Assembly: GCA_015345905.1 (NCBI GenBank)
Contig: JADDTR010000004.1
Coordinates: forward strand, 620,001 to 684,000
Direction: 5' to 3'
Length of the DNA stretch: 64,000 nt
Source of the DNA: Aotearoamyces nothofagi
Lineage: Eukaryota > Ascomycota > Leotiomycetes > Leotiales > Tympanidaceae
Shown piece by piece: positions 286 to 33,472 of this stretch. A program made the position numbers and the translations under genes. Each line of letters begins with the position of its first letter. The stretch's first letter is position 1. The notes under the pieces are model-generated. The model was not told where the DNA came from. It ran no database searches and was given only the letters and a program-made list of their open reading frames with translations.

Positions 286-1155
286 TACCCTTTAGTCTCC
301 ATCAAAACCCTGCAATAAAATATACACATCAACCCCCCAAGACCCCAAGACCCTCAAACCCACCTCGCAAGACCTCTCCATCCCCTCTCCTCTCTCTCTC
401 CTCCGAACCACCCCCCCTTCTTTTTCCATCCACATCGCCCACCCCCCAACCCAGCTCCACTCCGCTCCGCACCGCACCGCACGCACGGTTGACGCTCCGC
501 TGGCCCTCCGGGGGCCGCTGCCGCGGAGGCCGTCCTGGCGCCACGTGTCGTACCGTACCGTGCGGCGAGGCAACGGTGCCAGTATAGAGTATAGTCGCCA
601 GCGAGCGCAGCGAGGAAGGGGGTTTGGGGGAGGATCCCCCATGAAAAGGGATGAAAAGGGAGGTTGAGGAAGAAAGGGGAGGAAGAAAGAAAGAAAGGGG
701 AGGAAGGAAGAAAGAAAGAAAGCCCGCTGTGGACATGGACGTGGACGTGAGAGAGGGGGTGGGTGGGTGTGGAATGGGAGAGTAGAATAGAGGAACAGTG
801 GAAGAGTGAGGGTGTGGCATGGATGGTCAGTGGTGGGTGTGGCGGCGAGATAATCAGCGAGATAATCAGCAATGTGGTGAGATAATAAATATCATCAGTG
901 GGCTCGCATGGCATGATACAGAGGTCATGGACGTGGCTATTTCCACCGGGGCCCGCCCTCAAAGATAGTATTACAAGCAATGCTCGCTACCCCCGCCTGA
1001 ACGCCGTGCATATTCCGATGCTGTATGGGTATGATTGCCCCTTCGCAAGATTGAAAACGCCTCTATGACCAAAATTTTGCCAGATATATATATTTGACCC
1101 GATATACCCTGCCCAGTCTGACATGTCACGTCACATCATCATCACGCTCCAGTCA
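208..1155. other. Gene-free stretch with purine/pyrimidine-rich low complexity
   Basis: No gene is supported. The overlapping open frames here come from long pyrimidine-rich tracts (about 330-430) and GGAA/GAAA-rich tracts (about 650-720), which lack stop codons in several frames at once. The stretch contains hairpin copy 1 (490-535). The 3' part (1000-1155) would be the downstream region of the minus-strand RING gene. Confidence 0.6.
490..535 (+). repeat. GC-rich foldback repeat, copy 1 (subfamily B)
   Basis: Starts TGACGCTCCGCTGGCCCTCC and ends with GCGGAGGCCGTCC. The left arm CTCCGC pairs exactly with the right arm GCGGAG around a CCGGGGGCC centre. It shares its whole length with the copy at 25122-25166 and its left arm with all other copies in the window. 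Confidence 0.85.
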
Positions 1156-2759
1156 TCAACTATCTGTTCGTGGTCGGATCCTGAAGCCAGAATCTCTCAT
1201 CATCCTGTTTGTCCAGCGTGCGGTACGACTCAGCTCCTCGCCACCAGGGCCATCACGGGGATTTGCGCGGTCCTCTCTACGGATCTGACGAAGCTCGGCG
1301 AGGCGTTCACGTGCTAGAGCATTTGGCAAGCCATCTTGAGCAGCCGTGCCACCAGGAGCGTCCTGCGCGCCCGTCTCGGATTCGCCTAGAGGTGGTGCGA
1401 GCCCGCCATCAGCAGTAGCGGCTGTCTCGGTCCCGGCAACGGTTGGTCGAAGATCGACACGACTATGCACGTCAGTATCTGGAGTAGGTGATGAGCATGC
1501 ATATAAGACTTACCATAATGGACATGTGCCAGACACGTTCAGCAGCCACGGGTCAATACAAGCAGGATGATACTTGTGATTGCAGGGCAGAACTCGTACA
1601 TCGTCGCCCACTGCGAAATCATCTGTGCAGATAGAGCATCCCAGCTCAGGTCCGTTTACCTCGCCCTCCTGATCAGGCGGAGCTATTCCGTGCATATCAG
1701 GACCTAGGCCTGACTCTACAGCAGACTCGCCCGCCGTCTTCTCGTTTTCTTGACTCTCATTCATGGCACTGCCGTCTTCAGCTCCCACTGGAGCTGTACC
1801 ATGTATGACGTTTTTTCCGTCCTCCAGCTCGATACTGTTGTTACTTGCTGGCTTTGCTGTGTCAGGATCTCCGAACTTGACAATTGGTAGGGTCTCGAGC
1901 ATAGCCCTAGCGAGCCCCTTAGCACGACTCTGCCGCGGTCGGCCGACGACATTTCGCGGCCCATATCTGTCAGGATGTCGATGAGCTCTCCAGGCGCCCG
2001 TCCCAATGATGACCAGGAACAGCACCGTAATTATGCCGGTGATGCTGTAGAGGATACTCATTGCCACAGCAGTGGTGGGGGTGGATGTTGAGGTTGACGT
2101 GGAATCCGCAGCTCCAGACGACGTAGATGTCGACGAGGAAGCAGTCGTAGCGTCCCTGATGGTAGCGGTGGGTGCCGCCGTATCAATGGCGTTCTTCAGG
2201 TTCGTAGCATCATTGACGTTCGTCATTGTTAGTAAGCTGGTGTAAGCAGTACCGCTGGTCACGTTGCAGTGGCCAGCCAGCAGACTGTAGAGGATGATGG
2301 CTTTGGGATCAAGCTTCATGACCGTGACCAAGACCTCGGAGGGCGTGATGTTCGACGTCGCGGCATTGCCGTCGCAACAGAGATAGGCAATGTCACCTCC
2401 GGCAATGCTGCTCGCGGACGACGGGGTGGCCTCTTTCAAGGTGCCCCTGATAAGGATTTGCTGTGTTCAAAACGTCAGTCGAGATTGAGAATGGGGGGGC
2501 CCGCCGTCTCTATCGGGGCGCATACGTCCATCTCCGCATGAGACAAGCCGATTCCCAGATTGGCCGTCAGCGGCGCTACAATGGCCTCGGAGGTCATGGC
2601 ACCAGAAACGCCAAAGATCAATAGCAGCTGGTCGACAGTGGTCGCCAGCGTGTCGTTCGACGGGCTGGTCGACTGGGCGGCCGTCAATGCGGCCAGGAAG
2701 ACGAGCGCGAGGGCAGCGTAGCTGGCCATGCTGAGATATCCCGACGGACTCATCGTCAC
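1156..2759 (-). CDS. PA-like/transmembrane RING-H2 E3 ubiquitin ligase
   Basis: Three exons on the minus strand, 2759-2526, 2460-1514 and 1462-1156, joined by 65- and 51-bp introns, give about 495 residues. Residues 1-29 look like a signal peptide. A luminal protease-associated-like region follows, then a Ser/Thr-rich stalk, one transmembrane segment near 209-233, and a C-terminal RING-H2 near 353-392. Ligands run CSIC, then CNHKYHPAC, then CPLC. The last RING cysteine codon is split by intron 2 (TG|T), which supports the acceptor choice. Proteins of this PA-TM-RING layout sit in endomembranes and ubiquitinate membrane cargo; that role is inferred from the family. About 100 disordered residues follow the RING. 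The substrate is unknown. The first ATG after the promoter region was chosen because it directly precedes the hydrophobic leader. Confidence 0.85.
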
Positions 2760-4005
2760 TCGGGAGCGATAGCGACTATCTGGACGGAGCCGTGATCACA
2801 TCTGATATGGGGAATGTGTGTTTCTTGCCAGCGTGGAGAAGAGAGCGGAGGAGGGGGGAGGGCCAAGTTAATGAGGAGCGGGAGATCTGGTAGCAGGGCC
2901 AGGCAGGGCCAGGCAGGCCAGGCAGGCCAGGCAGGCAGGCCAGGGCAGCTTGGTTTGAACCGGTTTGGCGCTAGTCAGCAGCGAACGAGAACGGCGGAGC
3001 GGCAGGATTTGGATTTGGGGGGGGGGGGGAAGTTCTGGCCGCCGGGTGGGATAAGGCAGAGGCGCTAAGGCAGAGGCGCTAAGGCAGGCAGGCAGCAGCT
3101 GGGGGGGGGGAGGAGAGGATAAGGCCAGGTCAGGCGGGCCTCAGGCAGCAAGGCCAGCAGGGCCAGTCAAGGCCGGTCAAGGCCAGCAGGAGGATCCAGC
3201 CAGATGGCGCAGATGTGAATGACACCGGGCTATTACAGTCCAGTACAGCTGTGCCAGTCCAGTCCAGCCCAGCCAGTCCCGTCGCTGCCAGCTGCCCCGT
3301 CGCTATCTGCGCCAGTCACCAGGCGGCGTCTAGCGACGCACAGCCCCCCAGCCCACCCGGGCACAGCTGGACCCGATGCTGCGCTTACCCCATACGACGC
3401 CGACGCCCCATCCGCCCCATCGCAGGGCGCAGGGCGCAGGGCGCAGGGCGCGCTGAGGCGCCGAGGCAGCCACCCCCGGGCCGGCTGCGGGCGCAGGAGC
3501 TGCTTGATCTGATCTGATCCCCGTATTTGGAATCCTCGGGGAGGAAAGGGGGAGAGGGGGAGGGGAGGAGAGGAGGGCGTGACACCGAGGCTGGGCTGGG
3601 CTGGGATGGGATGGGATGGGATGGAAGAGGATGAGAGAAGATGAGAGAAGGCCAGGCTGGGTTTGGGTGCGGTGGACTGACCGACTGGCTGACTGGCTGG
3701 CTGGCCAGGTCACCCATCCGTCCATCTACCTACCTACCTCCCTTATCCATCATGCCCTCCAGCGCGCGCGCACCGTGCTGACCTACTCGCACCGCCACCG
3801 CTACCGTGCCTCACCTTGCCCTACCCTCCCTTGCCCTACCCTACCGCACCGCCGCCACAGAGAGGCTCGCGACGCAATCACGACGCCCGCCACGCCCACA
3901 GCCCCCTTCTGCTCTGCAGTACAGCACAGTACAGTACAGTAATCAACCAAATCCCTTCCCTCAATCAGTAATCAAGTAATCAATCAATCAAAATAACCAA
4001 CCAGC

Positions 4006-4046
4006 CACTCACTCACTCACTCACTCACTCACTCACTCACTCACTC
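4006..4046. repeat. (CACT)n microsatellite
   Basis: About ten uninterrupted CACT units, flanked by related CCAGCCAA and CCGACCGA words. Confidence 0.95.
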
Positions 4047-4350
4047 AGCCAGCCAACCGACCGACCGATCCGCGGCCGCACGCAGTCGTGCGATGCCGGG
4101 TAAACAGCGCGGGAGAAAGCAAGGCACTGGGCTCGGGTGACCTGGCCTCGCCGGTGTCTCTCGCCTTTTCTTGCAGGTGACTTTTGCTGCTGCTGCTGCT
4201 GGTCGGGTCTGCTGCACAGGCTGGAGACTGCAGACTGCAGACTGCAGGCTGCCCTGGCTTGCTACAGCAAGAGGCGCCAGGTCACGTTGTGTCGCCCGTG
4301 ACCCCCGCGGCCGGACCTACTCCCGCGTCGGGAGTCGGAGAAGGAAGGGC

Positions 4351-4396
4351 ATGCTGTGCTGTGCTGTGCTGTGCTGTGCTGTGCTGTGCTGTGCTG
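4351..4396. repeat. (TGTGC)n microsatellite
   Basis: About nine tandem TGTGC/GCTGT units ending at 4396, directly before the 17-bp minisatellite. Confidence 0.95.
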
Positions 4397-4404
4397 GTCG
4401 GTTT

Positions 4405-4577
4405 GGTTACTGTAGCGGTGCGGTTACTGTAGCTGTGATAGTTGTGACAGTGCGATTACTCTTAACAGTGACAGTGCAGTTACTCTAGCAGTATAATTAC
4501 TCTAACAGTCCAGCTACTGTAAGTACTGTAACAGTACAGCTACTGTAACAGTGCAAATACTCCAACAGTCCAGCTAC
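4405..4577. repeat. 17-bp degenerate minisatellite
   Basis: About ten degenerate units with consensus near ACAGTNCAGYTACTSTA. Clear examples are ACAGTCCAGCTACTGTA, ACAGTACAGCTACTGTA and GCAGTATAATTACTCTA. The unit is partly self-complementary (ACAGTA with TACTGT). No coding role is apparent. Confidence 0.8.
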
Positions 4578-5451
4578 TTAGTCTAATACCCTCGCCCCAA
4601 CTGCCCCGTTCTATCCCTCTATCCCAGCCTATTCCAGATCCGCCCTCGCCCTCGCCCTCGCCTCTCCCCTCTCTCCCCTCTCCCCTCTCCCCAGCCCAGC
4701 CAGCCCAGCCGCCCCACATCCCCCGTCCCCCCGGAATCCGGAGTCTTTGCTGGGCGCCAAGCTCTGCTGGGCTCTGCTGGCTTCTGCGTGGCGTGGCGTG
4801 GCGGTGCGGGCTGCGCTGTCCGACTCTCGGCTCTCTGCTCCTCGTATCTCCCCGTGTCTGGTCTGTATCTCGCATCTCGCATCTCGCATCTCTCCGTGTC
4901 GCTCATCTCTCTCCGTGTCGCCATGTCGGCGTGTCGGCGTCTACGCCCCCCAGCCTGGATTACCCTGCCCTGCCGTCCGCAATCATTTGTCCGTCGGCAC
5001 AGGAAATGCCGCAGCACAGCACACAGCCCAGTCCAGCCCTCCTCTCCTCTCCCCTCCCTACCCGCCCCATCGTAGCACGTCCGTTTCAGCCCCCCCCCGA
5101 CGACGCAAATCCTCACGCACGTATCTCGTCACGTCATCAGCCATGCCATCCACAGATGCCCGTCATGTCTCAATCCCGCATCACAGTCAACAGTCGCTAC
5201 TGTATATTTTCCGGGGTCCCGCGTTTGGACCGATCGGCAGCAGGGGCGGGACGCGCTCAACTGCCGAGAATTCTCTTCGAGAGAGAGACGGGAGTGGGGC
5301 AAGGCGAGAACGGGGGGAAGGAAGAGAGGAGAGGAGAGAGAGGAGGAATCAGGAATCTTCTACCGTAGCTATACTATGCTATGCAGTAGTCAACTCATCA
5401 CATGCAATATCGCATTCCCCTGATTATTCCATCCCAATCCCAACCAACCAC

Positions 5452-5500
5452 TGACGCTCCGCTGGCCCTGCCCGGGGGGCTGCTGCCGCAGAGGCCGTCC
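5452..5500 (+). repeat. GC-rich foldback repeat, copy 2 (subfamily A)
   Basis: Starts TGACGCTCCGCTGG, has a GCCCGGGGGGC centre and ends GCAGAGGCCGTCC. It is almost identical to the reverse-orientation copies at 6782-6830 and 31345-31393. Confidence 0.9.
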
Positions 5501-6576
5501 AGCCCCTCTCCGCTGCCCACCCAGTTCTTTTTCTTCTCTTCTCTTCTAAAATCAAATCTCCCATGTCTGTATACATGACATACATACACGCGCTCGCTCC
5601 CTGCTGTATTGTACTGCATCGCACGGGTCATGTGCCCCAGCCAGATCTATCGCGTCGCGGCTGGCGGCTAGGGTGCAGGCATTGTGCGCTGTGGAGACCC
5701 CCGGGCGTGGCTGCCTCTTGCCTGAGGTACCTTACCTGCCTCAATCCTCTGGCTGTCTGTCTGTCTGCTCTACCTCAGCCTGGGTAGTTCAAAACTTGCC
5801 TTCCCTCACCTTGCCTCGCCTTGCTTTCCAGCACAGCATCCGCGGCTTCGCTTGGGTACCGTGGGGTGTTTACGCCGCACTTGCTTGGGTCCATTAGCGG
5901 TCCGGGTAGGTGCCGCGGCCAAGTCGGGGAGAGAGGCGCTGGCGGGAGGATGTTATCGCTCCTTGCCTTGTCTGCCTTTCTGTACCTCCTTCTATCTTAT
6001 CCACCTTACTGTACCTCCACCTCCACCTCCACCTCTCCGCCCTCCACCACTACGTACCCCAAAATACCCAAAACACCTCCCAACCCGCGCCACCAGCTCC
6101 CCTTCCGCGCGTCCCTTATTATACCGAGGAATTGGGAAAGAAAAAAGGGAAAAAAAAAAGGGGGGGGGGGCATAGGTGATATGCAGTAAGTGAGCACAAG
6201 TAAGCAAGAGCGAGTAAGCAGGCGAGTAAGGCCGTCTCTACTCCTGGGCCGTGGGTGGCTGTGCCTGGTTATGTTTTGTTCTCTCGAATCCTGCGTTGGT
6301 GGTCGGGACGGGGTGGGTGGTGGATTATCTATCCTACATCCTACGCTTACCTTTGATCTTGCGCTGGCTAGTGTTCGTGTTCGTGTCGAGACTGTTCTAT
6401 CCATCCACCTCTCCACATCCCAGCCACAAAATCCCATCCCCACAACACTCCTATCCTATCCACATATCCACATAACCACGCCACGCCATCCCCACCCCCC
6501 CCGGGGGTATCGGGGAAAAAGAATAGCAGAACGCCTCTCCTCTTGTGGCTTTGCGAACTACTGAACTAGGAGGCTG

Positions 6577-6651
6577 GCAACGGATAACGTAGAGAGAAAA
6601 GCAACGGATAACGTAGAGAGAAAAGCAGCAACGAACAACGTAGAGAGAAAA
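6577..6651. repeat. 24-27-bp minisatellite, three copies
   Basis: Units at 6577-6600, 6601-6624 and 6625-6651 share the core ACGTAGAGAGAAAAGC. The third unit carries a 3-bp insertion and a few substitutions. Confidence 0.9.
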
Positions 6652-6781
6652 GCAGCAAGCAAACAAACAAACAAGGCAAGGCACCACCGCACGCCGCCCT
6701 TCCCCGGCGCCGCGGCTAGGGGGAGGAGAGCCCGCGATCCGGCGTATCCGCGGGGCCAGCAGCACGGGGTTCCCGCAGGCT

Positions 6782-6830
6782 GGACGGCCCCTGCGGCAGC
6801 AGCCCCCCGGGCAGGGCCAGCGGAGCGTCA
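6782..6830 (-). repeat. GC-rich foldback repeat, copy 3 (subfamily A)
   Basis: Reverse orientation of copy 2: it starts GGACGGCCCCTGCGGCAGC and ends CCAGCGGAGCGTCA, with a CCCCCCGGGC centre. Only a few differences separate it from copies 2 and 8. Confidence 0.9.
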
Positions 6831-7023
6831 CCTGCCCCCCGACTACGGGGCTGGTGACCAGGTCGGTCTATCTGGCTGTGTGCTGCGGCACGCGGCACGC
6901 GGTGCTGGGTAGGCCTGTTGGGCGGAGCGGAGCAGAGCAGTGCAGAGCAGAGATATGGGGCACGGGCACGGGTTAGGTTATGGGATCACATCTGGTTCTA
7001 TTCCTACTGGAAGAGCAGGGGTC

Positions 7024-7067
7024 GTGTAGAGGTCATGTAGAGGTCATGTAGAGGTCATGTAGAGGTA
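7024..7067. repeat. 11-bp minisatellite, about four copies
   Basis: Tandem GTAGAGGTCAT units located downstream of the APC10 stop codon. Confidence 0.85.
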
Positions 7068-7149
7068 AAGTAGGTAGCAAAAGGGGGTATCACAACGCCT
7101 CGTCGCATCGCATCGCATGCACGGCACCACCACCACGAGGCCCGACCAG

Positions 7150-8373
7150 TCACCGAAGTTCCACCTCGCCCATCCAATCCGGCTCGGCCAACAGGCCCGC
7201 GCGTTCCAGCGGCGTCCCGAGACTCCTCTCCTTGGAGCCGCCCACGGCCCAGTCGTCGGCAGCAGCGAAGTGGGCGCCGAGCCTCTCGTCTCGGGCATAG
7301 ATCTTCAGGCCCCTGACGTGCGTGTCCTTTCCGTTCTGGTGGTTTTCCACCACCTTGACCTGCACGAGGAATGCGCGCAGGGTGTTGCCGTCGGGGCCGC
7401 CGCCGACGCCGTCGAGCGGCACGTCGATCCAGCCCTTGGGCTGCGTGAACTCGAGGGACGAGAAGGGGATGAGGTCGTGGTAGCCGGTGCCGGCGAGGAG
7501 GGTGATGCGCGTCGGCGTGTAGGACTCGTCGGCTTCGAAGTCGAGGCAGATGCGGATCGAGAGGATCGAGACGAGGCGCGAGAAGTGGATGTTGAGGTGG
7601 TGGGGCTGCGGCCCGTCGGATCTGTGTGGCAGCGTTAGGGAGAGGGGCTGGAGGGTGGTGCTGGTGACGCTTACTGCCAGAAGAGATTTGTGTCTTCGTC
7701 CCGCAAGGCTTCGACTCCGCAGCCGGGTTTGCATGTCGAGACAGTCCATGATGCTAGGTTACCGATCTCTTTCAGCCCTGTTGGGTCGAATTGTGAATCT
7801 AGTTCCATAGGTGCTATATGAGAGTGCCCAGTTAGCAAATGTAGAATTACAGTTTTGGGGTTTCTGGCATTCTGGCAGATGTCGCTCTGGCACTGTGGCA
7901 CTGTGGTCATTGGCCATTGGCCATGCTCGCGAATCCGACAAGACTACGTGGAAAGCTCTGTCCAGGACTGGCATATGGGCATGAAACTCGATGAGGGTCT
8001 GTATCTCAGGCACTGTACGAGAGCTTTGAGCAGACAAGATTCTCTACGTACCTTCATCGTGAGCCCCTTCCCCATCCACGCCGTCAATCTCCACCTCCTC
8101 TGTAATGTCCACCACATCAGCCGTATCCTCCTCTTCTACGTCCTGATCATCCAGATCCGCAGATCCGTCCTCCTCCTCCTCCTCCTCCTCATCCTCCTCC
8201 CCCTCATCAAGCGTGTGCTCCTCGCCTCTCAGATCCTGCCGCGGTGCCAAATCCGCTCTCAATTCCGGTGTAGCATTGGGCGAGGCTTCATAGCCGGTCG
8301 TATTTCTCGGCCTGCGCGCCCGCACAAACTGGCGCGCATAGCCTCGCAACGACGAGGCCGGACTGGGAGACAT
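7150..8373 (-). CDS. apc10: Anaphase-promoting complex subunit 10 (Doc1)
   Basis: Three exons on the minus strand, 8373-8052, 7813-7675 and 7621-7150, encode about 310 residues. Introns are about 238 and 53 bp. The N-terminal third is disordered and strongly acidic (a run of Glu encoded by GAG repeats near 8165-8205), as in many fungal orthologues. The DOC jellyroll follows: IGNLASWTVSTCKPG, then NLFWQSDGPQPHHLNI (split by intron 2 in the Gln codon), then FTQPKGWIDVPL and VVENHQNGKDTHVRGLKI. In the family this subunit sits beside the APC/C co-activator and helps bind D-box degrons, making ubiquitination processive; the role here is inferred from orthology. The 240-bp first intron is the longest in the window but restores the frame exactly. 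The conserved block leaves little doubt about identity; the start codon is less certain. Confidence 0.92.
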
Positions 8374-9449
8374 TGCGGTTCTGCCACCTCACCTGGCGGG
8401 GTCGCGTCTTTGTTGATATTGTTTCTGCCTGAGGCTCGGGTGCGCAGGCGAAGGCGAAGATGCGGGCCTGACGAGACAGGTCCCCCAGGTTGCATGCGGT
8501 CGACGCCCGTGTCATGACGTCAAGGCCGAACTCTGATTCCCCGGGGCAGTTATGGCTTCCAGAATACCAAGTGGAAGCAGCCCGTCCATTCACTGTGAGA
8601 GGGGTGGGAAGATTTGTCACGGCATTGCAAGCACGCATACCGCACAGCATCCGAGCAGAACTCCAGAGCCCGAGGTGTTCCCCACGGCCCAGAATGGCCA
8701 GTGTACACGGATGCGCCGGTAAAGGGGCAGCTGCTGCACTGCACGTGCGGCACCCGACGAGGTCGCGGTAGTTGCGCGTCTGGAACACTCGTGATGTTCC
8801 GTCCCGAGCTCCCCCACTGCCGAGGCTAGCCTTGCGTTCCAGGCCTGCGCGGATCTCGCATGTGCCGCGGTCCAGTCCAGGGAGGAGCTCGCAGTCTCCA
8901 TCTCCAGTCTCCAGTCTCCAGGCCGGGCAACTTGGCAAATGTCAGTAATGCAAGAGGTACTCTGTGTCGGTTCTCTACGTCGCTTCTCTACGTCGCTTCT
9001 CTACGTCGGAGCCCGTCTGCGGCGTCACACGTTCTGGCTGCCGCTCCACGCAATCCGAGGGCGTGGCTGCCCTTTAAGGTTTCCCCCGGCGTTGCATTCC
9101 GAGAAATGTCCACGATCTGGAATCATCTGATGGCTAAGCCGTACGAGGGAGCAATGACGCTCCGTACGGCCCGGGCGGTCTCGACTAGCATGAAGGGGTC
9201 GCCGGCACTGGTGGCACTTTTTGGCGGCAGGACACCGCTATTTTGAGCGTTTTTTTTTCCTTTTGGGGGGGCGGGATGGCTGGGCTCGTCGTTACCGGGT
9301 AAGCGAATGACATGACGCTGACACAACTGACACATTCATCGAGACTACATATTGACTATGTATCCCCCGTATTGCGCCTGCTCTGCTGTTCTGCTGTCCA
9401 ACACCACCAGCACTGGAGTAACATTAGATGCTCTTCCAAATCACTCTTG
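8374..9449. other. Divergent intergenic region between APC10 and the 91-residue orphan
   Basis: No gene is supported. It should contain the promoter of APC10 (minus) and of the small plus-strand gene. A 14-bp direct repeat (TTCTCTACGTCGC core, three copies) lies at 8971-9009. A 216-codon antisense frame at 8288-8938 overlaps APC10 exon 1 and has no recognisable domain. Confidence 0.6.
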
Positions 9450-9791
9450 ATGCAGCCATCGTCTTGTCAAGCCATGGCTAACCTGCTCTGCCTGTATCCC
9501 ATCGGGGTTTTCGACAAGTACGTGCTCCAGCGCCAAGCTGCGGCGTGTTTACTCGCCATCGCTGCCTGCTAACAAGCTCCCAGATACCGAGCGCGCAAGG
9601 CCGCCAGCAGAGAGCTGAAGATCCATGCTGTAGAGATCGAGAAGGAGTATCGCAAGCTCCATGGCCCGTCGCCTCCGTCGTATGAGGACATCATTGCCGA
9701 GCAGAGAGACCGTAGTAGCCGGGATCCAGGGTCAGGTTCCGTACGGAACGAGTCTGCGTACAGCAGCTCCGAGGAGGGCAGTGATCGATGA
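9450..9791 (+). CDS. Small orphan protein with a PPxY-like motif
   Basis: Two exons, 9450-9517 and 9584-9791, encode about 91 residues. The 66-bp intron has a GTACGT donor, a perfect CTAAC branch point and a CCCAG acceptor, so the splice is well supported. The product begins with a short hydrophobic stretch (MANLLCLYPIGVF) and continues with a basic helix-like segment (YRARKAASRELK). The acidic Ser-rich tail contains PSPPSYEDII, a PPxY-type sequence that WW domains can bind. A second in-frame ATG at 9474 could be the true start. No family is recognised. The PPxY role is an inference from motif alone. Confidence 0.6.
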
Positions 9792-10221
9792 GATGGCCTC
9801 ATTATGACTAGATTTCAGCCGGGATACCCATTATGCGTCAGGACTCAGGGAGGTCGGATCGGCATCGGCGACTCAAACGAGGCGGAAAGGCAATTGGTGA
9901 GCCAGGTTCACCAGGTCGCAGGGATTGTTAGACTTTAGCGATAAAACGGACAGGTGTTAGGCTGGGAGTCTTCGATTCGGGATATCATGTTCATATTTGT
10001 TCGATTCTGATCTGAATTCCGGGCATCAAGTGCGGCTGCATGGCCAGCACGGATATTGGCTAGGTTTAAGCCAAGATTATTATCCACAATTATTATCCTT
10101 TTTTTCATGTCTTCATATTATAGGTATCTACTATTTGTCGGAACCATACCGATCAATACATGAGACTAGACACTACTCGCACATCTCGTCGCCCATTCCT
10201 ATCTAGCAATGCCGACCCATT
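9792..10221. other. Convergent intergenic region
   Basis: Lies between the 3' ends of the small orphan (plus) and the permease (minus). Moderately A+T-rich, with nothing recognisable. Confidence 0.6.
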
Positions 10222-18670: not shown

Positions 18671-18960
18671 GTGGAAATGTTGACAATTTGTTTCAAAAGC
18701 CAATGTATTTCGTGTATGGGCCTTTAGAATTGTCTGGGATAAGCTATCCATTGTCGTGACGTAAAAATATAGAAACAACCCATATGCATCATAACCACCA
18801 TTTCTCTCATTAATCATCATCTTATCATTAATCGTGGACCCGTCTGCTCTTCCCCCTGAAACCACAAGCCTCCCAAAACGTTCGACCCCAAAGAAGAAGT
18901 TTGCTAACAACCCGACACCATCCTCATGAACATGACGTAGCGTATCATCTGGACCAATTT

Positions 18961-21588: not shown

Positions 21589-22127
21589 TGATATTAAGAT
21601 ACGTGACAAACCAGAGTAATTGTTGCAACGACTATACAATGCTGGCGAATACCTATTTGCGTGACGATATCGGATATACGTTGAGGCGTTTGTTTTGTGG
21701 TTTGCAGTTGGCACAACAACCGTCATTTAAGCTTCTTGGCTTGGCCCGTTATCGTCATAGAAGCGTCGGCCACCGGCTGACCGGATTAACCCCCACGGTC
21801 CGGATAAGAGTTGGCAGCAGCCCCACTAACGATCGCACTGGAAGATGACGAAAGCTTGAGGCTGCTTGGCGCAATTGACCATTGGGAAAATTGCGACAAT
21901 TGGGCTTTTCTAAGGTACAGAAGTATGTAGCTGCCCGAAAAAGCAGCAGGAAAAATTTCTTCCGTTTTTTATGTATTTGTTTCTTCAAAATAAAAGATTA
22001 ACACGGACACGGTCTAGTATCTATGTATATTCATTCACAAATCATCCTGGGTCAGCAAGGTCTCTCCTAGCCTCCGATATACAAGATCCAGGTCAAGCTA
22101 TCAGATGCTAATCTTGGCCTTCCCCCA
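21589..22127. other. Intergenic region between Rid1-like and Apd1-like genes
   Basis: Promoter of the Rid1-like gene and 3' flank of the Apd1-like gene. Nothing else recognised. Confidence 0.6.
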
Positions 22128-23341
22128 TCACCAACTAAACACTCCTCTCTTCCTATCAAAACCACCTCGTAGCTGACTTTCCGGCTTAATCACCTTTCCC
22201 TGTAATACGGTAAATTTGACGATTCCCTCGCAGTCTTCTGGTTTGACTCTTGCCAACCATATACATTGCGCAGCGCCTTCTTCCTGCTCTTCACCAGCTG
22301 TTACTGGTGCAACAGGTCGCACCTCGCCTTGTACCTTGGCTCGCTCTAGTGTGTCAAGGCCAAATGCATCCGGCCTTCTGTAAATCATAACATTGGCAGA
22401 ATATTTGTGTCCTCCAACATGACTTATGAAGTAAATGCCTACTCCACCGGGCCGTTCATCGTCAAGATCCCGAAATAACCCTAACGGCCGTAGATGTCTT
22501 CCCAGCTCCTTTCGCAGCAGAGGCGCGCTCTGCCCGCATCGAGCATCTCTTGTCCGTTGCGAACATAATAATATCAACACATTGTGTGGAGATGGTCTAG
22601 ACGTTAACTCGGTAGCCGTAGGCAGTGGCGCATCGAGTGAGCGGGGGATGGAATTTGAGGGGATGGGAGTTGTAGTTGTCGCTGCAGTGTTGATAAACGA
22701 GGTGATGAGGGCGGGAACCGATGTAGGGGTAACATTTTCAATAATTGTGAACGCTGGGAGAAGAAGTACTGTGGTTGGCTCCGCGTAATCGTTGTGGTGT
22801 GAGGGTGTTGGGATGTTGGACGCCGAGAGCATGAGTCTCTACAAATTGAGCGCAGAGTCAGCATGTCTATCTTTACACAAGAATCGACTCGGAATCGCAA
22901 GAAAATGAATCTTACCCCATTACTTGGCTTGACAGAACTCCTGCCAAATGCCTCCATTACGCTGCCCTTCTCATCCTCCACATCCCTCACCCAATCGGTC
23001 TTCCCAGTGGCAACCAAAACATGTGTGGCCCACCCCTTTATATGGCCGTATAGCTTGTCGCTCTCCTCAATCTTGAATCCCTTTGGATATTTCACCTCAC
23101 ACGATTCGCACTCGTGGGTACAGTCGTCTCCGTCAACCGCTGGATCAACTTTGGGAAAGATTCCCTGGATGGACGTCGCATTTGGCGGCGTCCCTGGGAC
23201 AGGCGTCGTCGCCCCAGAGATTGTCTGAATGGCGCTGCTCAACAGCGATTTGAACTGCGTAGACATTCTTTTCGGACGATGTTCTGGGATGGCAGAGACA
23301 TTCTGCGAAGAGCGTGAATTGGCCTCTGTTTTATTGGGCAT
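22128..23341 (-). CDS. Apd1/Suc-Fer-like ferredoxin-fold protein
   Basis: Two exons on the minus strand, 23341-22916 and 22838-22128, with a 77-bp phase-0 intron, encode about 378 residues. Recognisable blocks are DGDDCTHECESCEVKYPKGF near 70-89, HIKGWATHVLVATGKTDWVR, then, after the intron, LLCSQRTRDARCG and YFISHVGGHKYSANVMIY. This is the sucrase/ferredoxin-like family that includes yeast Apd1 and Aim32. Members hold a [2Fe-2S] cluster with two Cys and two His in a thioredoxin-like fold. The C-terminal CxxxxxxxxC-like pair and the HVGGH sequence are the likely ligands here. The biological role is poorly defined even in yeast. The product ends with a Trp after a basic tail. Assignment to the family is strong. 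Confidence 0.87.
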
Positions 23342-23817
23342 CGCGGATACGGAGATATAACAGCTAGTGAGTTCCGGGCGGATTCCGGGTGTGGGGCTAA
23401 TCAGATACGTGTGCTTATCAGATCTAGTGTCCCTGAGGTGCCGTCGGACTCGAGGACAAACAGATTAATAACGACGACGAACAATAGCTGTCGGGGAGCA
23501 AGCCTTCTGAATAACTGGAATTCCTCAGCTTCTGTTGACTGCTGGCATCATTTACTGCCCATTCATGAGGAAAGGGGCTAGAGATATACGCTGCTCGGAT
23601 TTAACGCTCGGTGTACGTGTTGGGAGGTCGGGCACAGTCGGGCACGCTCGGAGTTATCGTCTCGGCTATACATCTGTACCTTAGGCATATACCACCACAT
23701 CAACTACGATAGCTACCTGACGGCGAATCAGGGTGAACGGGATTTGTCAGCTGGCTGAACTCAGCAGATAGGGGTTCTCCGCATACCTTGACATCGACCA
23801 CTGTCCCCTACCTTGAA
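23342..23817. promoter_or_regulatory. Shared divergent promoter region
   Basis: A 476-bp region between the starts of the Apd1-like gene (minus) and the OB-fold-like gene (plus). No specific sites can be claimed. Confidence 0.5.
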
Positions 23818-24960
23818 ATGCCCCCGAGCGTTTTGTTTCTAACCGGAGCACCAACATCAACTTCCCTGGACTGGGAGCATGCTAAGCTCCTCGAAAGCTT
23901 CACCACTCCAGTTGCACGATTTGCAGGATATATCCAACCTAGCAACAGTCTTTCAACACTCTCGGTAACAGGTTCAGCGACAAAACATGCAGCATGGAGG
24001 TCGCTGGATCTTGCTCCTCGGCACCTCACCAGTGGACATTCTCAAGTTCATGAGTTTTTAAACGAGTATCACGGCAATGCGTCATTTTTCAAAACTTCTG
24101 ATGTGTCTTTTTATTCTGATGACTCGGACGCTGTACACGAGCAGGGGAGCCATATCTCCAGTTCCGAATCTGCGGAAGAAGTCTTGTCTCAGTTCTATGA
24201 GCACTCATTTGCTATACACGCAGATGCCGCATCGTCACAGATCCCAGGACAGCTATCGGACAACGAGAAGACCTTCTCATCGAGCAATGAAACTTCCTTC
24301 AGCACAAGTATATCTGGTTCCTCACTAGACTCTCAGCCCGCTCAAAAGGTTCCCGTTCCAGCTGCAGGCCACCTTAGCGACCTTGAAGGCATCCCAAATG
24401 CGGCATACCTCCACTCTATTCAGCCACAGACGATGTCAGTAAATCTCATAGCTGGCATCATCTCCGTCTCACCCCCGCGACGGATCAAAACACGGCGCGG
24501 AGGCGAGGTCGACATCGTGGAGCTCCTGGTGGGAGACGAGACCAAATCCGGGTTCGGGATCAACTTCTGGCTCCCGCCACGCCCAGCAGGGGAACACGCG
24601 AGCGGCGGCCGGGGCGGTCTCGGGGCTGTTCCGGGCGGGCTCAGGCCGCGAGATATCATCCTTCTGAGGAACGTGGCGCTGGCGAGCTTTCGCGGACGCG
24701 TCTATGGCCAGAGCCTCAGGAAGGAGACGACGAAAGTCTACCTGCTGTACCGGAACAGGATCGACAGAAGCGATGTTGGCGGCTGCTACACGACCGAGGA
24801 TCTCCGCGACGCCCTGCCAGCACCCGCGCAGCTTGCAAAGACTGCCCGTGTCCGCGACTGGGTTCTGCGTTTCGTTGGGGCCGGGACGGGCGGGGTCAGA
24901 AGAGGCGGGGAAGGACATATCGAGGTCCTGGAGGAGCCGTTACCGCCAGATACGCCGTGA
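23818..24960 (+). CDS. Orphan protein with an OB-fold-like C-terminal block
   Basis: A single exon from the ATG at 23818 gives about 380 residues. The N-terminal two-thirds is Ser/Thr/Glu-rich and probably disordered. From about residue 205 the pattern changes: NLIAGIISVSPPRRIKTRRG, then VDIVELLVGDETKSGFGI, then LRPRDIILLRNVALASFRGR and VYLLYR. The alternating strands (an entry strand, a Gly-rich turn, a strand starting with RPRDIILLRN and a final strand) look like a single-strand-DNA-binding OB fold of the Pot1/SHLD2/RPA kind. That is my inference from pattern; no specific family is recognised. Third codon positions are strongly G/C in the OB-like block, more so than in the N-terminal part. 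The ATG at 23818 is preferred because no ATG lies upstream in frame. Confidence 0.75.
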   Translation: MPPSVLFLTGAPTSTSLDWEHAKLLESFTTPVARFAGYIQPSNSLSTLSVTGSATKHAAWRSLDLAPRHLTSGHSQVHEFLNEYHGNASFFKTSDVSFYSDDSDAVHEQGSHISSSESAEEVLSQFYEHSFAIHADAASSQIPGQLSDNEKTFSSSNETSFSTSISGSSLDSQPAQKVPVPAAGHLSDLEGIPNAAYLHSIQPQTMSVNLIAGIISVSPPRRIKTRRGGEVDIVELLVGDETKSGFGINFWLPPRPAGEHASGGRGGLGAVPGGLRPRDIILLRNVALASFRGRVYGQSLRKETTKVYLLYRNRIDRSDVGGCYTTEDLRDALPAPAQLAKTARVRDWVLRFVGAGTGGVRRGGEGHIEVLEEPLPPDTP

Positions 24961-25121
24961 GGTCCTGGTGCCTTGGCCAGTTATCATTGCATCCGACCCC
25001 ACGTAGATAGACAGTACTGTAGATACCCTGTCCCCGTGCGAGATCCGCAAATATACCATATCCGCAGCTCCTCCGTCTGCGCAACACCCACCCCGTGTCG
25101 TCGGCATTTAGGGAGTCACTG

Positions 25122-25166
25122 GTCGGCCTCCGCGGCAGCGGCTCCCGGAGGGCCAGCGGAGCGTCA
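25122..25166 (-). repeat. GC-rich foldback repeat, copy 4 (subfamily B)
   Basis: Begins GTCGGCCTCCGCGGCAGCGG and ends GGCCAGCGGAGCGTCA. CTCCGC in one arm pairs with GCGGAG in the other, as in copy 1. Reverse orientation. Confidence 0.85.
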
Positions 25167-25425
25167 CGTCTCGTTTCACATACTCGATCCCGCTATTAAT
25201 AACCCCGTCCCTGAAAAGAAATCTGGGGAAATCTCTGAAGAAATGAAAAGAAAAAGAAGAGAAGAGAAAGATTATCCCCTCAAGATGAATCTCAATCTAA
25301 CGAATTAAATAAAATAAAATAAACAATACAATACAATACAATACATGAACAGCCTGATCCATGAACAGAACAGATCCGAAAGTCCGTCTTCGAGACATTG
25401 ATTCCATGACAGACTCGCAGGCACA

Positions 25426-25472
25426 GACCGCTCCGCCAGCCCTCCCCCGGGAGGGTGCTGCCGCAGGGGCCG
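25426..25472 (+). repeat. GC-rich foldback repeat, copy 5 (subfamily C)
   Basis: Core GCCCTCCCCCGGGAGGGTGC followed by TGCCGCAGGGGCC. The 16-bp centre is close to a perfect palindrome. Confidence 0.85.
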
Positions 25473-25614
25473 CGCCGGGTATTTTCTTCTTTTCTTTTCT
25501 TCTTTCTTTAATTTTTAATTATATATATATATATATTTTTTATACAACCACCTTACAATCAGCAGTACGAGACAAACGAAAATCCCACAGTCCACTTGGA
25601 GACTCGCAGGCACA

Positions 25615-25662
25615 GACCGCTCCGCCAGCCCTTCCCCGGGAGGGCTGCTGCCGCAGGGGCCG
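25615..25662 (+). repeat. GC-rich foldback repeat, copy 6 (subfamily C)
   Basis: Core GCCCTTCCCCGGGAGGGC followed by TGCTGCCGCAGGGGCC. Longer flanks are shared with copy 5. Confidence 0.85.
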
Positions 25663-25735
25663 TGCCGGGTGCTTGATTCTTCTTTTCTCTTCATTTTTTT
25701 TATATATACAGTTACGTTACGCTTAGGGAGGCGAG

Positions 25736-25790
25736 TGACAGACGCTCCGCTAGCCCTCTCCCGGGAGGGTTGCTGTCGCAGGGGCCATAC
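25736..25790 (+). repeat. GC-rich foldback repeat, copy 7 (subfamily C)
   Basis: Begins GTGACAGACGCTCCGCTAGC, has a CCCTCTCCCGGGAGGG centre and ends GCAGGGGCCATACC. It shows C-to-T-like differences from copies 5 and 6 in both arms. Confidence 0.85.
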
Positions 25791-26469
25791 CAAATACTTT
25801 CTTTCATTCTCTTCTTTTCTTCCTTATTCTTCTCTTTCCATTTTTATATATTTTTTTAATTTTATTATATACAACCACCTTATAATCAACGATACAAGAC
25901 AGACAAAAAAACCCTCCAGGGAGTCGGCCATGTGCAGAGGAAGCAGGGTTAGGGTATGGACGAGGTAAAGAGAATTTCCCAGACGATTTGGAAAAAAAAA
26001 ACATGGAGTTCTGGGGGGAAGGGGGAGCGGGAGCCGGCGTGGGTTTAGATAGGATGCAAGAAAGGGGGGCCAAAAAAAAAAAAAAGGAAAAAAAAAAGGC
26101 AATTGCAGAAGGTCAAGTGGCAGGCACGTGGGCAAGACGGATTCGGGGCGTGATACGTTTTTTGATTTCTTCAACGGCACGCGTGCCAGGTCTAACTAAC
26201 TAAATACGCTGTCGTCAGGGGGTTGGGTCTGGGCCCGCGCCGCTGTCTGTGCGAGGTGCGACAACAGAGGTATACCTAAAGCTCCATGCGGTTCAATGCT
26301 TCGCTCACTTCTGTCTTGCGTGATATGTGGGATATGCAAGCGGCCATAGGCCCTGTAGAAATAATAAATATATACATTTGAATTATATTGCGAACATGGA
26401 GGTTGCGAAGATCCGTCAACGGATTCTAGACGACGCTACACTGCGCTACGACGTGAGGCTGGCGTACGT

Positions 26470-27756
26470 TTACGATGTTAGACTGGCGTACGTCTCGCCG
26501 ATTGTGCTGAGGGTGCTGCTGGAGCTGAGCAGGACGTCTTCGGAACACATGAAGTAGGCGTAGCGATCGACGTAGTCTTGCTCGTCTAGCCATGGGATGA
26601 CGGTTTCGAGGAAGGTGTTGATCTCGTCGTCGGTGCCTGTGGCGCCGAACTCCGTGATCCAGATAGGTCGGTTCCCGCCTGCCGTGTAGGCTTCGGCGAT
26701 GTAGGACTTGAAGTAGTCGATGTTGCTAGCACTGTCGTACCAGTGGATGGGGACAAAGTCAATGGTGCAGTCGGTACATGCCGAAATGAAGGATTCGAGG
26801 TAGGTAAGTCCGAGGGGCGAGGCGCCGTTGGTTACAGCCGGGGCGCCAAGCTTGGCTTTGCCAGCGTAGGGCTGAACGTAGGTCTGGTAGCCGGTGACGG
26901 CGTCGCTGACGGCGATGTTGCACTGAGAGTCAAGGTCTGGCTCGTTGAATGCGAGAAGGTGGGTTGAGCCCGAGTCAAGGGCGGTCTCAACTGCCGAGTC
27001 CCAGGTGGATGTGGAAGAGTCGTCAGTGCACCAGAGCATGGGGACGTATTCTAGCGAGGAGAGGACGTCGCTAGTGGTTGACTCCCAGTTGTATGCCCAG
27101 GTGACGGAACTGAAGCCGCTGAAGATATCGGTCAGACTGGCCTCGTTGAAGGCGAGACCACGCTTGCCAGACGAGGAAGAGGATGAAGATGATGCTGCAG
27201 CGGCCGCCGATGAGCTGGCTGTGACTGGCGTAGAAGAGGATTCGGCTGCAACTGGCGTGGTTGATACAACGGCAATGGTCGAGGATGTTTCAACAGGCTC
27301 AACTGAAGATACTGCAACTGAAGTAGTGCTTGGCTTCACGACAGTTGATAGAGTTGTTGGCGTGGCTGAGGAAATGACTGCTGATGATGTAGATACAGCG
27401 ACGGTTTTGGCGTGCGAGCTCTTGACGATAGCCCCTAGGTTGGCTTGAATAGCGGTGCTAGAAGATGATACTGATGATGATAATACTGATGATGATGATG
27501 ATGACGAAGAGGTCGTATTTGCTGATGAGGTTGTGGTTGACACTAGAGTGGCAGATGGGGCAGGCCACTCGACAGTCACATAGTTTGTGACTGTAACAAC
27601 ATTGACATAGTCCTCGACGACGGTATTGGTTACGGTAGCAATGACAACATCGCGGCCCTTGTGGAAGTTCCGATGTCCTCGGTGCACGGCGGCAATAACG
27701 TCTTTGGCCAGCAAAGAAACCACTAGGGTTGAGGCGGTAGAAGCGAAGAAACGCAT
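26470..27756 (-). CDS. GH128 glucanase-like cell-wall protein (Asl1 type)
   Basis: A single exon on the minus strand encodes 428 residues. Residues 1-22 form a signal peptide. A Thr/Val-rich segment follows, then a long Ser/Thr-rich linker (about 70-197) that should be heavily O-mannosylated. The catalytic domain starts at KRGLAFNEAS near 198. The two expected acidic residues of a clan-A fold are Glu272 in LLAFNEPD and Glu369 in PIWITEFGA. Family GH128 contains secreted beta-1,3-glucanases and fission yeast Asl1. The protein is predicted to act at the cell wall on beta-1,3-glucan; there is no obvious GPI signal. The linker is encoded by ATC/TCA-type triplet repeats (27440-27510), so its length may vary between strains. 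Confidence 0.92.
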   Translation of the reverse strand: MRFFASTASTLVVSLLAKDVIAAVHRGHRNFHKGRDVVIATVTNTVVEDYVNVVTVTNYVTVEWPAPSATLVSTTTSSANTTSSSSSSSSVLSSSVSSSSTAIQANLGAIVKSSHAKTVAVSTSSAVISSATPTTLSTVVKPSTTSVAVSSVEPVETSSTIAVVSTTPVAAESSSTPVTASSSAAAAASSSSSSSSGKRGLAFNEASLTDIFSGFSSVTWAYNWESTTSDVLSSLEYVPMLWCTDDSSTSTWDSAVETALDSGSTHLLAFNEPDLDSQCNIAVSDAVTGYQTYVQPYAGKAKLGAPAVTNGASPLGLTYLESFISACTDCTIDFVPIHWYDSASNIDYFKSYIAEAYTAGGNRPIWITEFGATGTDDEINTFLETVIPWLDEQDYVDRYAYFMCSEDVLLSSSSTLSTIGETYASLTS

Positions 27757-27820
27757 GATGGTTGATAACTGGAGTTCTGGCTCGACGGGAGAGGTTGTGG
27801 GTGTAGATCAGGATAGATGC

Positions 27821-27840
27821 GTATATATATATCTATAACG

Positions 27841-27874
<34 letters not shown>

Positions 27875-27876
27875 AC
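27821..27876. repeat. (TA)n microsatellite upstream of GH128
   Basis: Two TA blocks, 27821-27832 and 27841-27876, about 65-120 bp upstream of the GH128 start codon. Confidence 0.95.
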
Positions 27877-28157
27877 CGGGCTGGCGCTGGATGACAATGA
27901 ATGCGATTGTACTTGTGAATGAGGGAATGGATCAACCGTTCAGTCAAAGATCTCGGATCTCGACTCCAGCAATGAATGAATAGACAATGAATATAAATGA
28001 GCGCAACGCTTCAAACGAGCAGAGAGAGAGAGAGAGCGCAATGGACGATCCTTAGCATTCTTGGAGGGGGGAAGGGGGGCAGAGGAAAGATATAGGACGG
28101 AGCAGGCAGCGCACGCGACGGGGAGGGGGGTGACCGGCCCATGCCGTCGGGCGGTGG

Positions 28158-28191
<34 letters not shown>

Positions 28192-31100
28192 CTGGACGGG
28201 ACGGAAGAACCTACTGCAGGAGGTGCGCGTACAGAGGACGGACAGGGCGCCAGGGAGGGGGGACGGGGGCTAGGGAGGCAGGATTGGGACTCAGGCAGGG
28301 AGCGGTTAGTGAAGCCAGCGAAGTCAGCGAAGTGGCCTGCCCGGGAGCACGGGACAGGCGACGGCGGGGCAGCAGCGGGCAGCAGCGGGCAGCACGGGGC
28401 AGCCCAGGGCAGCCACGGACGTTTCATCGATAGCGATTGTGTGCAAACGCCATGCTGCTGCTCTGCCCGCCCCAGCCCGCCTAGCCCGTCCGGGCGGCCC
28501 GCAGGCCCAGAACACGTCGGCGTCCGCAGCGGCCGCCGCGCCGGATCTGAGACAGGGATACGCGTGCGCGCGCCTCACGACAAAGCCCTTGTTTCGCGGG
28601 CCACTCACAGCCCGCGCGGCCCCACCCGACGTTTGGCCACGGGGCGGGGGAGCGTGGCTGGCGGCCCGTGATTGGCCGGCTGCTCGCCCAGGGAGACCGG
28701 ACGAGAGGGGGCCCTGTCTGCTGCAGCCTGCGCGCCCCCTTAGCCGCGGGAAACAATCTCGCTACGGGCTCGCTTCGGGTTGTTTCAGCTTTCTGCTGCT
28801 GCAGAGAGAGCTCTGGCTGCGTATGCAGTCTACCCCTGACGGGCAAATGATTGCCACGGTTGGAGAACAGGCCATTCAGCAGCCATTCAGCAGCCATACA
28901 GCGGCATAGCGGTACAGCTACAGCAGATACCGCAGCGCTGGACTGCACTGGGCTGCACCGCTGGCTAGTCAGGCACAGCGGTCGGGCACATCCAGGCACA
29001 TCCAGGTACGCGACAGCTGGCGCTCGTTCTTTTTGCCATGGATCCTTGGCACTCTGTCGTATCGCACCGGCTTGATAACCTGCTCTGCTCTGCCCTGCTC
29101 TGGCCTGGCCTGGCCTGGCCACCTCCCAGCGCTCGGAGTACAGGACAGCCGCTGTTTGGTGGAGTTTGGGGATGCGAGATATAACTGAAACACGCACCGC
29201 ATCGCCGGACCAAGCAAGCGTGATCGGGGTGCGGCACCTGTCCTGTCCTGTACGTTGCTGGCAGAGGAGCGGGCGGGCGCCTGGACGCGACTGGGAGGGA
29301 CGGGACTGGGCTGCTCTGCTCTGCTCTGCTCTGCTCGCCCCGGATTGGCTCGCGACCGGCACCCAGCATCGCCCGCGCCGCGGCGTCTTCCAGGACTGGG
29401 AACATGGGGCCAGCGCGGCGCCGACACGTGTACGCGGCCGACGGATCACGAGGGTTTTCGCTGCTGGCTGGCTCTCTGTTTCTACGGTGTGAGCCGTGCG
29501 AGGCCGAGGGCGAGGGCGAGGGCGAGGGTGCAATCCAGCCCAGGTGGATGATGTGATGTGATGTGATGTGTACTCTACTACTGTATATACTACCACATAT
29601 ACTACCGTATATACTACTGTACAGTACTGTACTGTGCAGGACTTATGCAGGGCCCAATCCAGCCTGCATGCATCCGCCGTGTTCAGCCAGGTACAGGACG
29701 GCGCTGCAGTACAGCAACAGTACCTGCGTGCCCGGCACCAATGCGGGTTCCTCTTCCTTCCCTCACTCTCTACAGCCCACAGCCCACACTTCGCCGAGAG
29801 AACACGCACACGGCAGGCACTCCCCCAGCCCATGTCACGTGGATCAAGCCATCCATCGGGATCGAGCCCGCTCCGCTTGTCTTGAGAGCTGGAGCCCGTG
29901 TTCCTGCTGCAGCGTCGCCCACTGTCTGTGCCACGCGTATCTGGCCACGCAATCTCCGCCGTGATTACAGTCAATGCTCACTGTGCTGTAAATATCAGCA
30001 AGCCCCAGCGGTGCTACTGGTGAGAGACGGGCTGTGCGAGCGTCCAAGCCATCACAAGGCCTGCCGGATCATCTCCGTGGCATGAGAGAGTCGTATCTGG
30101 CAACATCCCTCCCTCCATCTCGCTTCTAGAAGGACGAGGGACGAGGGACCTGCGAGATGCGGCATCGCTGGGGGGAAAGCTCGTAGCCGAAGAGCCTCTT
30201 GTCCGGTGTCTCGGATATCGCCGGTGCAGTCGAGCAGGCAGGATCCACAGACGAGTCTGGAGGTTTCTGACTCGGCCCTGCGAGTCTATACTTGGTAGTC
30301 CAACACTCAGTACCCTCCACGTCCACGCAGGGCATGCCAGGTCCAGTCACTCAGCCCTCACGTTTGCGTACAATGCGTACGCTTCGTCCGGCGTCTGCGG
30401 CATTCAGTAGCTCCCACGATCTCGCACTGCTTCTGGTGCATTGTAGGAATAGTATGCAGTGGACAGGTAGACAGTATACCTGCGGATATTGTCAAAGGTT
30501 GCAACGCTGGCTGACCAGCATATGTGCATGCGTACATAGTAGCTGGATTGGCAAGATCTGAGCTCTAGGTCAGTCATTGTGTTTCCGGTGCTGCAATGGG
30601 TTCGGAACGACTCCCCTTCTCTCCATTCTACATCTCTACGTCCTTTCAAGAAGGTAGTGGTTGTCTTGATTGCCATCAATAATGACCTCCTCATCTCACT
30701 CATCCTCATCCTTTCTGGTAGTGGTGGTCTTGATCGCCATCAGTAATGACCTCCGCACCTCACTCATCCTTTCTGGCCCGACGAGCCGTCATGGAACTGC
30801 AGTCTGGCTTCAAACCGTCCTGGATCCCAAGTTCAACACCCGGCCCAGTCATATCGTCGTAATGAAGGCAGAGTGCTTTTCTAGTTAACCAACGTATAGC
30901 TTCTCAAGCCTTACAAAGAAGTTTGTCGCCATCTATTATCTATCTCAACTCTCACACACACTTAATACTGCCTTCAGCGGAGTAATCCATACATTCTTTG
31001 TTTAAATAAGTATATCTTGAAATTCAAACGTTTCGACGATGTGATCAAATATGATCAAATGTGCTAATTCATCTCCTTTATTTCACCGTCTTGTCCATTC

Positions 31101-31344
31101 GAACACCAGAATCTGTGCATTCCCTCTTGGAGCTTTCCACATCCTATCGCTAAGTCTGTTCTCTACATCTTTTATTGTAATCGACAAACGTATTGTTCAA
31201 TACTGGGCCAAATACGGTGGCTGGCATGGACAAAACCTATGTACCTCTCGCACCTGGTCCGAAGTCATCACTCTCTTATCCGTACATCCAAGCAAGCGAA
31301 ATGTTGGGGCTATCCAGACATCCCGAGCTTGGTAATAAAGCACC
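27877..31344. other. Long low-complexity island without a supported gene
   Basis: Contains (GA)n tracts (28019-28037, 28156-28191), GCAGCGGGCA repeats (28372-28405), CTCTGCTCTG runs (about 29085-29100, 29316-29334), GAGGGC repeats (29505-29530), a 12-bp CTACYRYATATA array with ACTGTACAGTACTGTA (29575-29637), and a tandem duplication at 30653-30774. A 497-codon frame on the minus strand (28481-29974) runs through these repeats. Its composition (Arg/Ala/Gln/Ser words repeated) and lack of any domain argue against a gene, so it is reported only as a finding. Confidence 0.6.
30653..30774. repeat. Tandem duplication of a ~60-bp unit
   Basis: Units 30653-30716 and 30717-30774 share GGTAGTGG, GTCTTGAT, GCCATCA, TAATGACCTCC and CTCACTCATCC. 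They differ by several substitutions and a CATCCT insertion in the first unit. Confidence 0.9.
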
Positions 31345-31393
31345 CGGACGGCCCCTGCGGCAGCAGCCCCCCGGGAGGGCCAGCGGAGCATCA
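31345..31393 (-). repeat. GC-rich foldback repeat, copy 8 (subfamily A)
   Basis: Begins CGGACGGCCCCTGCGGCAGC and ends CCAGCGGAGCATCACC, with a CCCCCCGGGAGGGCC centre. It is the most distal copy seen; none is found in the remaining 32 kb. Confidence 0.9.
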
Positions 31394-33458: not shown

Positions 33459-33472
33459 CTCTTCTCCCCCAC

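Follow-up and report, generated by a model that had tools for sequence, protein, structure and literature searches.

A 64-kb segment of the genome of the ascomycete Aotearoamyces nothofagi (assembly GCA_015345905.1, contig JADDTR010000004.1, positions 620,001 to 684,000 of the forward strand), referred to here as the window, contains eight copies of a GC-rich unit that is probably a very short (~46-51 bp) non-autonomous dispersed element of the nuclear genome. The unit is 46-51 nt long (~48 nt), its two arms occur together at all eight places, and it is found in both orientations, with copies 3, 4 and 8 on the minus strand and the others on the plus strand. It is a discrete unit, whole wherever it occurs, with sharp ends and in several sequence types, from which we infer that it has been copied to new places. 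All counts refer to this window and to eight copies, representing at most six independent placements, since copies 5, 6 and 7 lie within a single tandem duplication.

Structure and distribution of the element

The unit has the structure TGACGCTCCGCTGGCCCT, a centre of 9-14 nt, and then GCTGCCGC(A/G)G(A/G)GGCCGTCC. All eight copies are full length, and neither the 18-nt left arm nor the 19-nt right arm contains an insertion or deletion in any of them; all of the length variation is in the centre, which is 9, 12, 12, 9, 13, 14, 14 and 11 nt long in copies 1 to 8, respectively. The aligned ends read TGAC...GTCC, or GGAC...GTCA on the other strand. The GC content of the cores is 0.69-0.84, compared with 0.43-0.60 for the 300-nt flanks and 0.515 for the window.

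There are at least three sequence types, the closest members of which lie apart in unrelated flanks. Copy 1 (490-535, plus strand, 46 nt) and copy 4 (25121-25166, minus strand, 46 nt) form type B, and although 24.6 kb apart and in opposite orientation they are alike at 41 of 43 ungapped positions. Type A includes copy 2 (5452-5500, plus strand, 49 nt) and copy 3 (6782-6830, minus strand, 49 nt), which are 1.3 kb apart in opposite orientation and alike at 45/46 positions, together with copy 8 (31346-31393, minus strand, 48 nt), which is 24.5 kb from copy 3 and matches it at 44/45. That the closest pairs are in unrelated flanks, and that copies 1 and 4 and copies 2 and 3 are inverted relative to each other, fits the copying of a discrete unit and not segmental duplication. 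Among the five dispersed copies (1, 2, 3, 4 and 8), five of the seven variable ungapped columns are transitions.

A different situation is seen with type C, which includes copy 5 (25426-25475, 50 nt), copy 6 (25615-25665, 51 nt) and copy 7 (25740-25790, 51 nt), all on the plus strand. Copies 5 and 6 are alike at 45/47 positions, and copy 7 is the most diverged of all and has the lowest GC content (0.69). Self-comparison places the three within a locally duplicated block on the plus strand (25411-25909), in which 25411-25508 is repeated at 25600-25701 (102 nt, 88%) and 25423-25582 at 25738-25909 (173 nt, 75%), with a third repeat of 88 nt at 77%. The block is built of units of ~100-170 nt containing the element and pyrimidine-rich DNA, and is situated between a 407-codon plus strand open reading frame (ORF) and a minus strand Glyco_hydro_cc ORF. 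The original prediction, which was made from the sequence by eye, treated these copies as a subfamily of their own; the three members stand, and they are not independent of one another.

Searches with the arms recover the same eight places. The left-arm 14-mer GCTCCGCTGGCCCT, allowing up to three mismatches, has 18 matches in the window (100 shuffles: mean 6.6, maximum 12), eight of which are the copies and ten of which have no adjoining right arm; the right-arm 18-mer GCTGCTGCCGCAGGGGCC has eight matches, and every one is a copy (0.06 matches on average in shuffles). Both strands were also searched without filters with a covariance (structure) model, giving 13 rows of which eight have E-values of 7e-14 to 1e-9 and five have E-values of at least 1.1, and with a sequence-only model, giving 27 rows of which eight have E-values of 1.4e-17 to 1.5e-12 and 19 have E-values of at least 0.83. 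Both models were built from the eight copies, which they match by construction, and are thus informative only on extra copies; neither reports a ninth, diverged or partial copy above background on either strand of the window. The eight copies listed in the original prediction are therefore all recovered, with start positions correct to within 4 nt, as are their two orientations. When the window is compared with itself, the element is the only dispersed family (E-values to 1e-18), the other matches being local duplications.

The ends were located from the mean pairwise identity of the five dispersed copies, copies 5-7 being excluded because local duplication makes them dependent. Identity is 0.23 in the left 40-nt flank, 0.98 in the first 18 nt, 0.91 in the last 18 nt, and 0.27 in the right 40-nt flank. 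The ends are sharp and the flanks of the dispersed copies agree at chance level, bearing out the prediction of a short dispersed element below the size of a standard miniature inverted-repeat transposable element (MITE). It was also correctly noted that no target-site duplication is visible: a comparison of all eight copies over 12 flanking and 4 element nucleotides reveals no consistent one, and the longest words shared between the flanks have a mean length of 3.6 nt when a copy's own flanks are paired and of 3.3 nt in crossed pairs. The longest such words are CGGGTG (6 nt) at copy 8 and GTGAC (5 nt) at copy 4, and crossed pairs also reach 6 nt.

Palindromy and covariation

The element had been described as an imperfect inverted repeat along its full length with arms that change together, which was taken to suggest that a hairpin is selected for or copied through. 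The arms do not behave in this way. CTCCGC is present in the left arm of all eight copies, and only the right arm varies, with GCGGAG in two copies and GCAGRGG in six. The predicted subfamily of copies 1 and 4 does carry CTCCGC and GCGGAG, but its left-arm motif is common to every copy. Columns 17 and 49, the pair that separates the proposed subfamilies, form a C-A mismatch in 6/8 copies without a compensating change.

The pairing that was tested was taken from copy 1 and is biased toward it, as flagged by the program. Just one of its 16 pairs is changed on both sides, a value reached in 230 of 500 shuffles, and its covariation score of 0.147 is reached in 177 of 500; there is thus no excess of covariation over the null among these eight copies. 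In the RNAalifold consensus, two-sided change is seen in 0/11 pairs. Two observations point toward a hairpin. First, 89.0% of cells pair, compared with a shuffled mean of 87.1% (28/500 shuffles reach the observed value). Second, structures slid along the alignment score lower (36.5-52.3% paired, with covariation of 0.013-0.060 versus 0.147), as is expected because the structure derives from one of the sequences.

Folding gives a similar picture. Single copies with a few flanking bases fold as DNA no better than dinucleotide shuffles (z from -0.90 to +1.62), nor do the cores folded as RNA (z from -0.99 to +0.97), and aligning the cores with their own reverse complements also gives scores not above shuffles (z from -1.13 to +1.42, mean +0.14; 150 shuffles each). 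Copy 1 folds as a near-complete hairpin. The inverted repeat at the tips is restricted to the 4 nt GACG/CGTC, of which two positions pair in 5/8 copies and the others in 7/8 and 8/8. A hairpin with co-varying arms is thus unsupported by the constancy of the left arm, by covariation, by folding and by self-complementarity. These results remove the evidence for a hairpin and do not prove its absence, as eight copies provide low power. One pointer in its direction is that length variation is confined to the centre, the part of a palindrome in which changes of this kind readily occur.

Mode of spread and alternative explanations

The unit has probably reached new sites by being copied as DNA. The copying could be the work of a trans-acting enzyme that uses the two invariant arms, or the unit could serve as filler during the repair of breaks. 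A trans-acting enzyme would account for the invariant arms, and filler copying in break repair would account for the absent target duplications. Recognition or copying may act on the arms themselves, which would hold their length constant, with the GC-rich centre gaining and losing bases through slippage or through processing of a transient foldback; once in place, copies may erode as C:G pairs mutate to T:A, and an older group (copies 5-7) could have multiplied by ordinary local tandem duplication. Repeat-induced point mutation (RIP), a fungal defence, is known to require repeats far longer than ~50 bp, and a length so far under this requirement may allow so short a unit to persist.

Several points weigh against a mobile element. 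The case is built on one 64-kb window and on six independent placements at most. All eight copies are within the first 31.4 kb and the rest of the window has none, so the element may be a local feature. With the ends placed differently, the words CGGGTG and GTGAC would qualify as target duplications. The right end also is less certain than the left, and the unit may be longer there or its extent may depend on type: the second base past the right end is G in all five dispersed copies, and copies 6 and 8 share ~12 nt beyond it (anchored score 8, p 0.0005, as one of 56 comparisons and therefore ~0.03 when corrected). The other flank comparisons with p < 0.01 (copies 5 and 6 on both sides, copies 5 and 7 on the right) are all inside the tandem duplication.

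The genes of the window provide a context for these placements. Eleven of the 28 ORF pieces scanned match Pfam families, and no copy is inside any of the 11, in agreement with the original statement that the element is never within a called exon. They include an APC10 exon (Pfam E 1.5e-33; solved APC10/DOC1 chains, E 3.8e-27 to 4.9e-16), a RING protein, major facilitator superfamily (MFS) and sugar transporters, an amino-acid permease, a Drf_GBD (formin-type GTPase-binding) protein, and DUF3405, Glyco_hydro_cc, Suc_Fer-like and epimerase genes. The presence of APC10, MFS, formin-type GTPase-binding, RING and glycosyl hydrolase genes points to nuclear and not mitochondrial DNA, and the set as a whole suggests a filamentous ascomycete. 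Copy 4 is 161 nt past the 407-codon ORF, which has no Pfam match. Stop-free frames cross several copies, and the two that were scanned (24964-25305 and 25361-25723) have no Pfam match.

Among the alternatives, the one that survives best, though still unlikely, is that the unit is a protein-binding site or boundary element conserved by selection near the edges of genes, irrespective of how it was originally dispersed. Two invariant blocks flanking a variable spacer would suit such a site, as would the absence of copies from Pfam-supported coding pieces and the closeness of copy 3 to the APC10 exon ORF (320 nt beyond its end) and of copy 8 to the epimerase ORF (356 nt ahead of its first ATG). 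However, the close pairs in type A are alike over the whole unit, a degree of agreement that exceeds the requirements of a binding site and suggests recent copying, and the orientation of the copies relative to neighbouring genes is mixed. Should the unit prove to be bound, it would be a candidate for a dispersed motif with a regulatory or boundary role.

We regard with somewhat more doubt still an element that moves as single-stranded DNA via a hairpin, either of the foldback kind or resembling the repetitive extragenic palindromes (REPs) of bacteria. Like REPs (PMC2817692), the unit is short, GC-rich and extragenic, occurs in both orientations and lacks a target duplication, and copy 1 supplies the near-complete hairpin. 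Against this, no copy stands out from its shuffles in fold energy (best z -0.99), the eight copies show no covariation, and a transposase of the appropriate kind (Transposase_17/Y1, as in the REP-associated RAYT proteins) has no Pfam match among the 28 ORF pieces scanned, which cover part of the window.

It is improbable that the unit is the end or a fragment of a longer transposon such as a MITE, a Helitron or a short interspersed nuclear element. Helitron ends carry short GC-rich hairpins, and the ~12 nt shared further to the right by copies 6 and 8, and more weakly by copy 5, could belong to a longer sequence; but copies 1-4 share at most a few bases beyond the unit, and all eight contain the same unit, with none longer or randomly truncated. 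Chance likeness of GC-rich DNA, or plain segmental duplication, is very improbable as a general explanation and already refuted for copies 1-4 and 8, for although the shared flanks of copies 5-7 do reflect a tandem duplication, the shuffle counts and self-comparison E-values argue against chance, and the flank identities of the dispersed copies against duplication.

Among the other features of the window, the region 2800-9000 is GC-rich, with dense short tandem repeats (periods 3-27) and few coding signs, and includes nine copies of TGCTG (4352-4396) and 10.5 copies of CACT (4006-4047). A tandem pair of 54-nt units that are 91% identical is present at 30653-30770, and a local duplication of 97 nt with 81% identity at 33472-33703. 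We also note a 632-codon ORF (41262-43160) with a full-length match to DUF3405 (E 3.7e-185), for which no solved relative was found.

Comparison with known systems

Several known classes of sequence can be set aside. No Rfam family matches the window at its gathering score, the one match within 25000-26000 being far under the cut-off (15.3 versus 70 bits, E 3.4). No known RNA family or tRNA was found in the window. Three patterns searched in viral contigs gave 1, 0 and 5 stretches, and two patterns in bacterial and archaeal genomes gave 0 and 1; these contain one arm or short pieces, with the rest of the unit absent, and we judge them to be chance matches and not copies. As these collections are viral, bacterial and archaeal and hold no fungal nuclear genomes, absence from them says little. 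Six oligomers of the unit matched the literature in one instance, a 15-mer in a paper on a bacterial secretion system. Repeats of Tolypocladium were also considered, but no Tolypocladium paper was among those found. Neither this unit nor a nuclear fungal element of its size was found in the literature searched, the coverage of which is thin for subscription journals, so that novelty is not established.

Introner-like elements of the Dothideomycetes are, like this element, short near-identical repeats in ascomycetes. The ends of the unit are TGAC...GTCC or GGAC...GTCA, not GT...AG, and no copy is in a Pfam-supported piece, so it is not considered to be one of them. Fungal MITEs such as mimp and Guest have a length of at least ~100 bp, carry terminal inverted repeats and are flanked by target duplications. 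The element resembles them in being non-autonomous, dispersed and near genes, but is ~48 bp in length, with neither terminal inverted repeats nor a target duplication demonstrated; its 4-nt tips, self-complementarity within the range of shuffles and lack of a target duplication likewise lead us to reject assignment as a MITE.

If the unit is indeed mobile, nuclear and ~48 bp long, it would be far smaller than known eukaryotic nuclear transposons. One would then ask what enzyme or repair pathway is responsible for its movement, and if its shortness enables escape from RIP. The very short interspersed fungal elements found in the literature are mitochondrial. They include the GC clusters of yeasts, the PstI palindromes of Neurospora, MUSE1 of Podospora and the double-hairpin elements of Allomyces, which are very short, interspersed and intergenic, most of them GC-rich and several palindromic, and for which mobility has been argued (PMC7218506). 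The element shares with these its very short length, its interspersed, intergenic distribution and its GC-richness (PMC7218506), but differs in its nuclear-type gene setting and its lack of significant palindromy. With a nuclear gene set in the window, it is not a mitochondrial GC cluster proper. A nuclear counterpart of such clusters is a possibility that we put forward tentatively and consider rather doubtful: a ~48-bp mobile unit with fixed arms and a length-variable centre, inserting without target duplication and under the length needed for RIP, which would amount to thousands of copies per ascomycete genome if the window is typical.

In bacterial REPs a palindrome comes after a GT(A/G)G head and a RAYT gene is associated, and relatives of IS200/IS605 make no larger target duplications (PMC2817692). 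The element is similar in its short, GC-rich, extragenic and bidirectional character, but it ends in TGAC/GTCC, has no GT(A/G)G head beside a significant palindrome, and is fungal and not bacterial. The closest known analogues are the mitochondrial GC clusters of fungi and the REPs of bacteria, with REPs the nearest in form.

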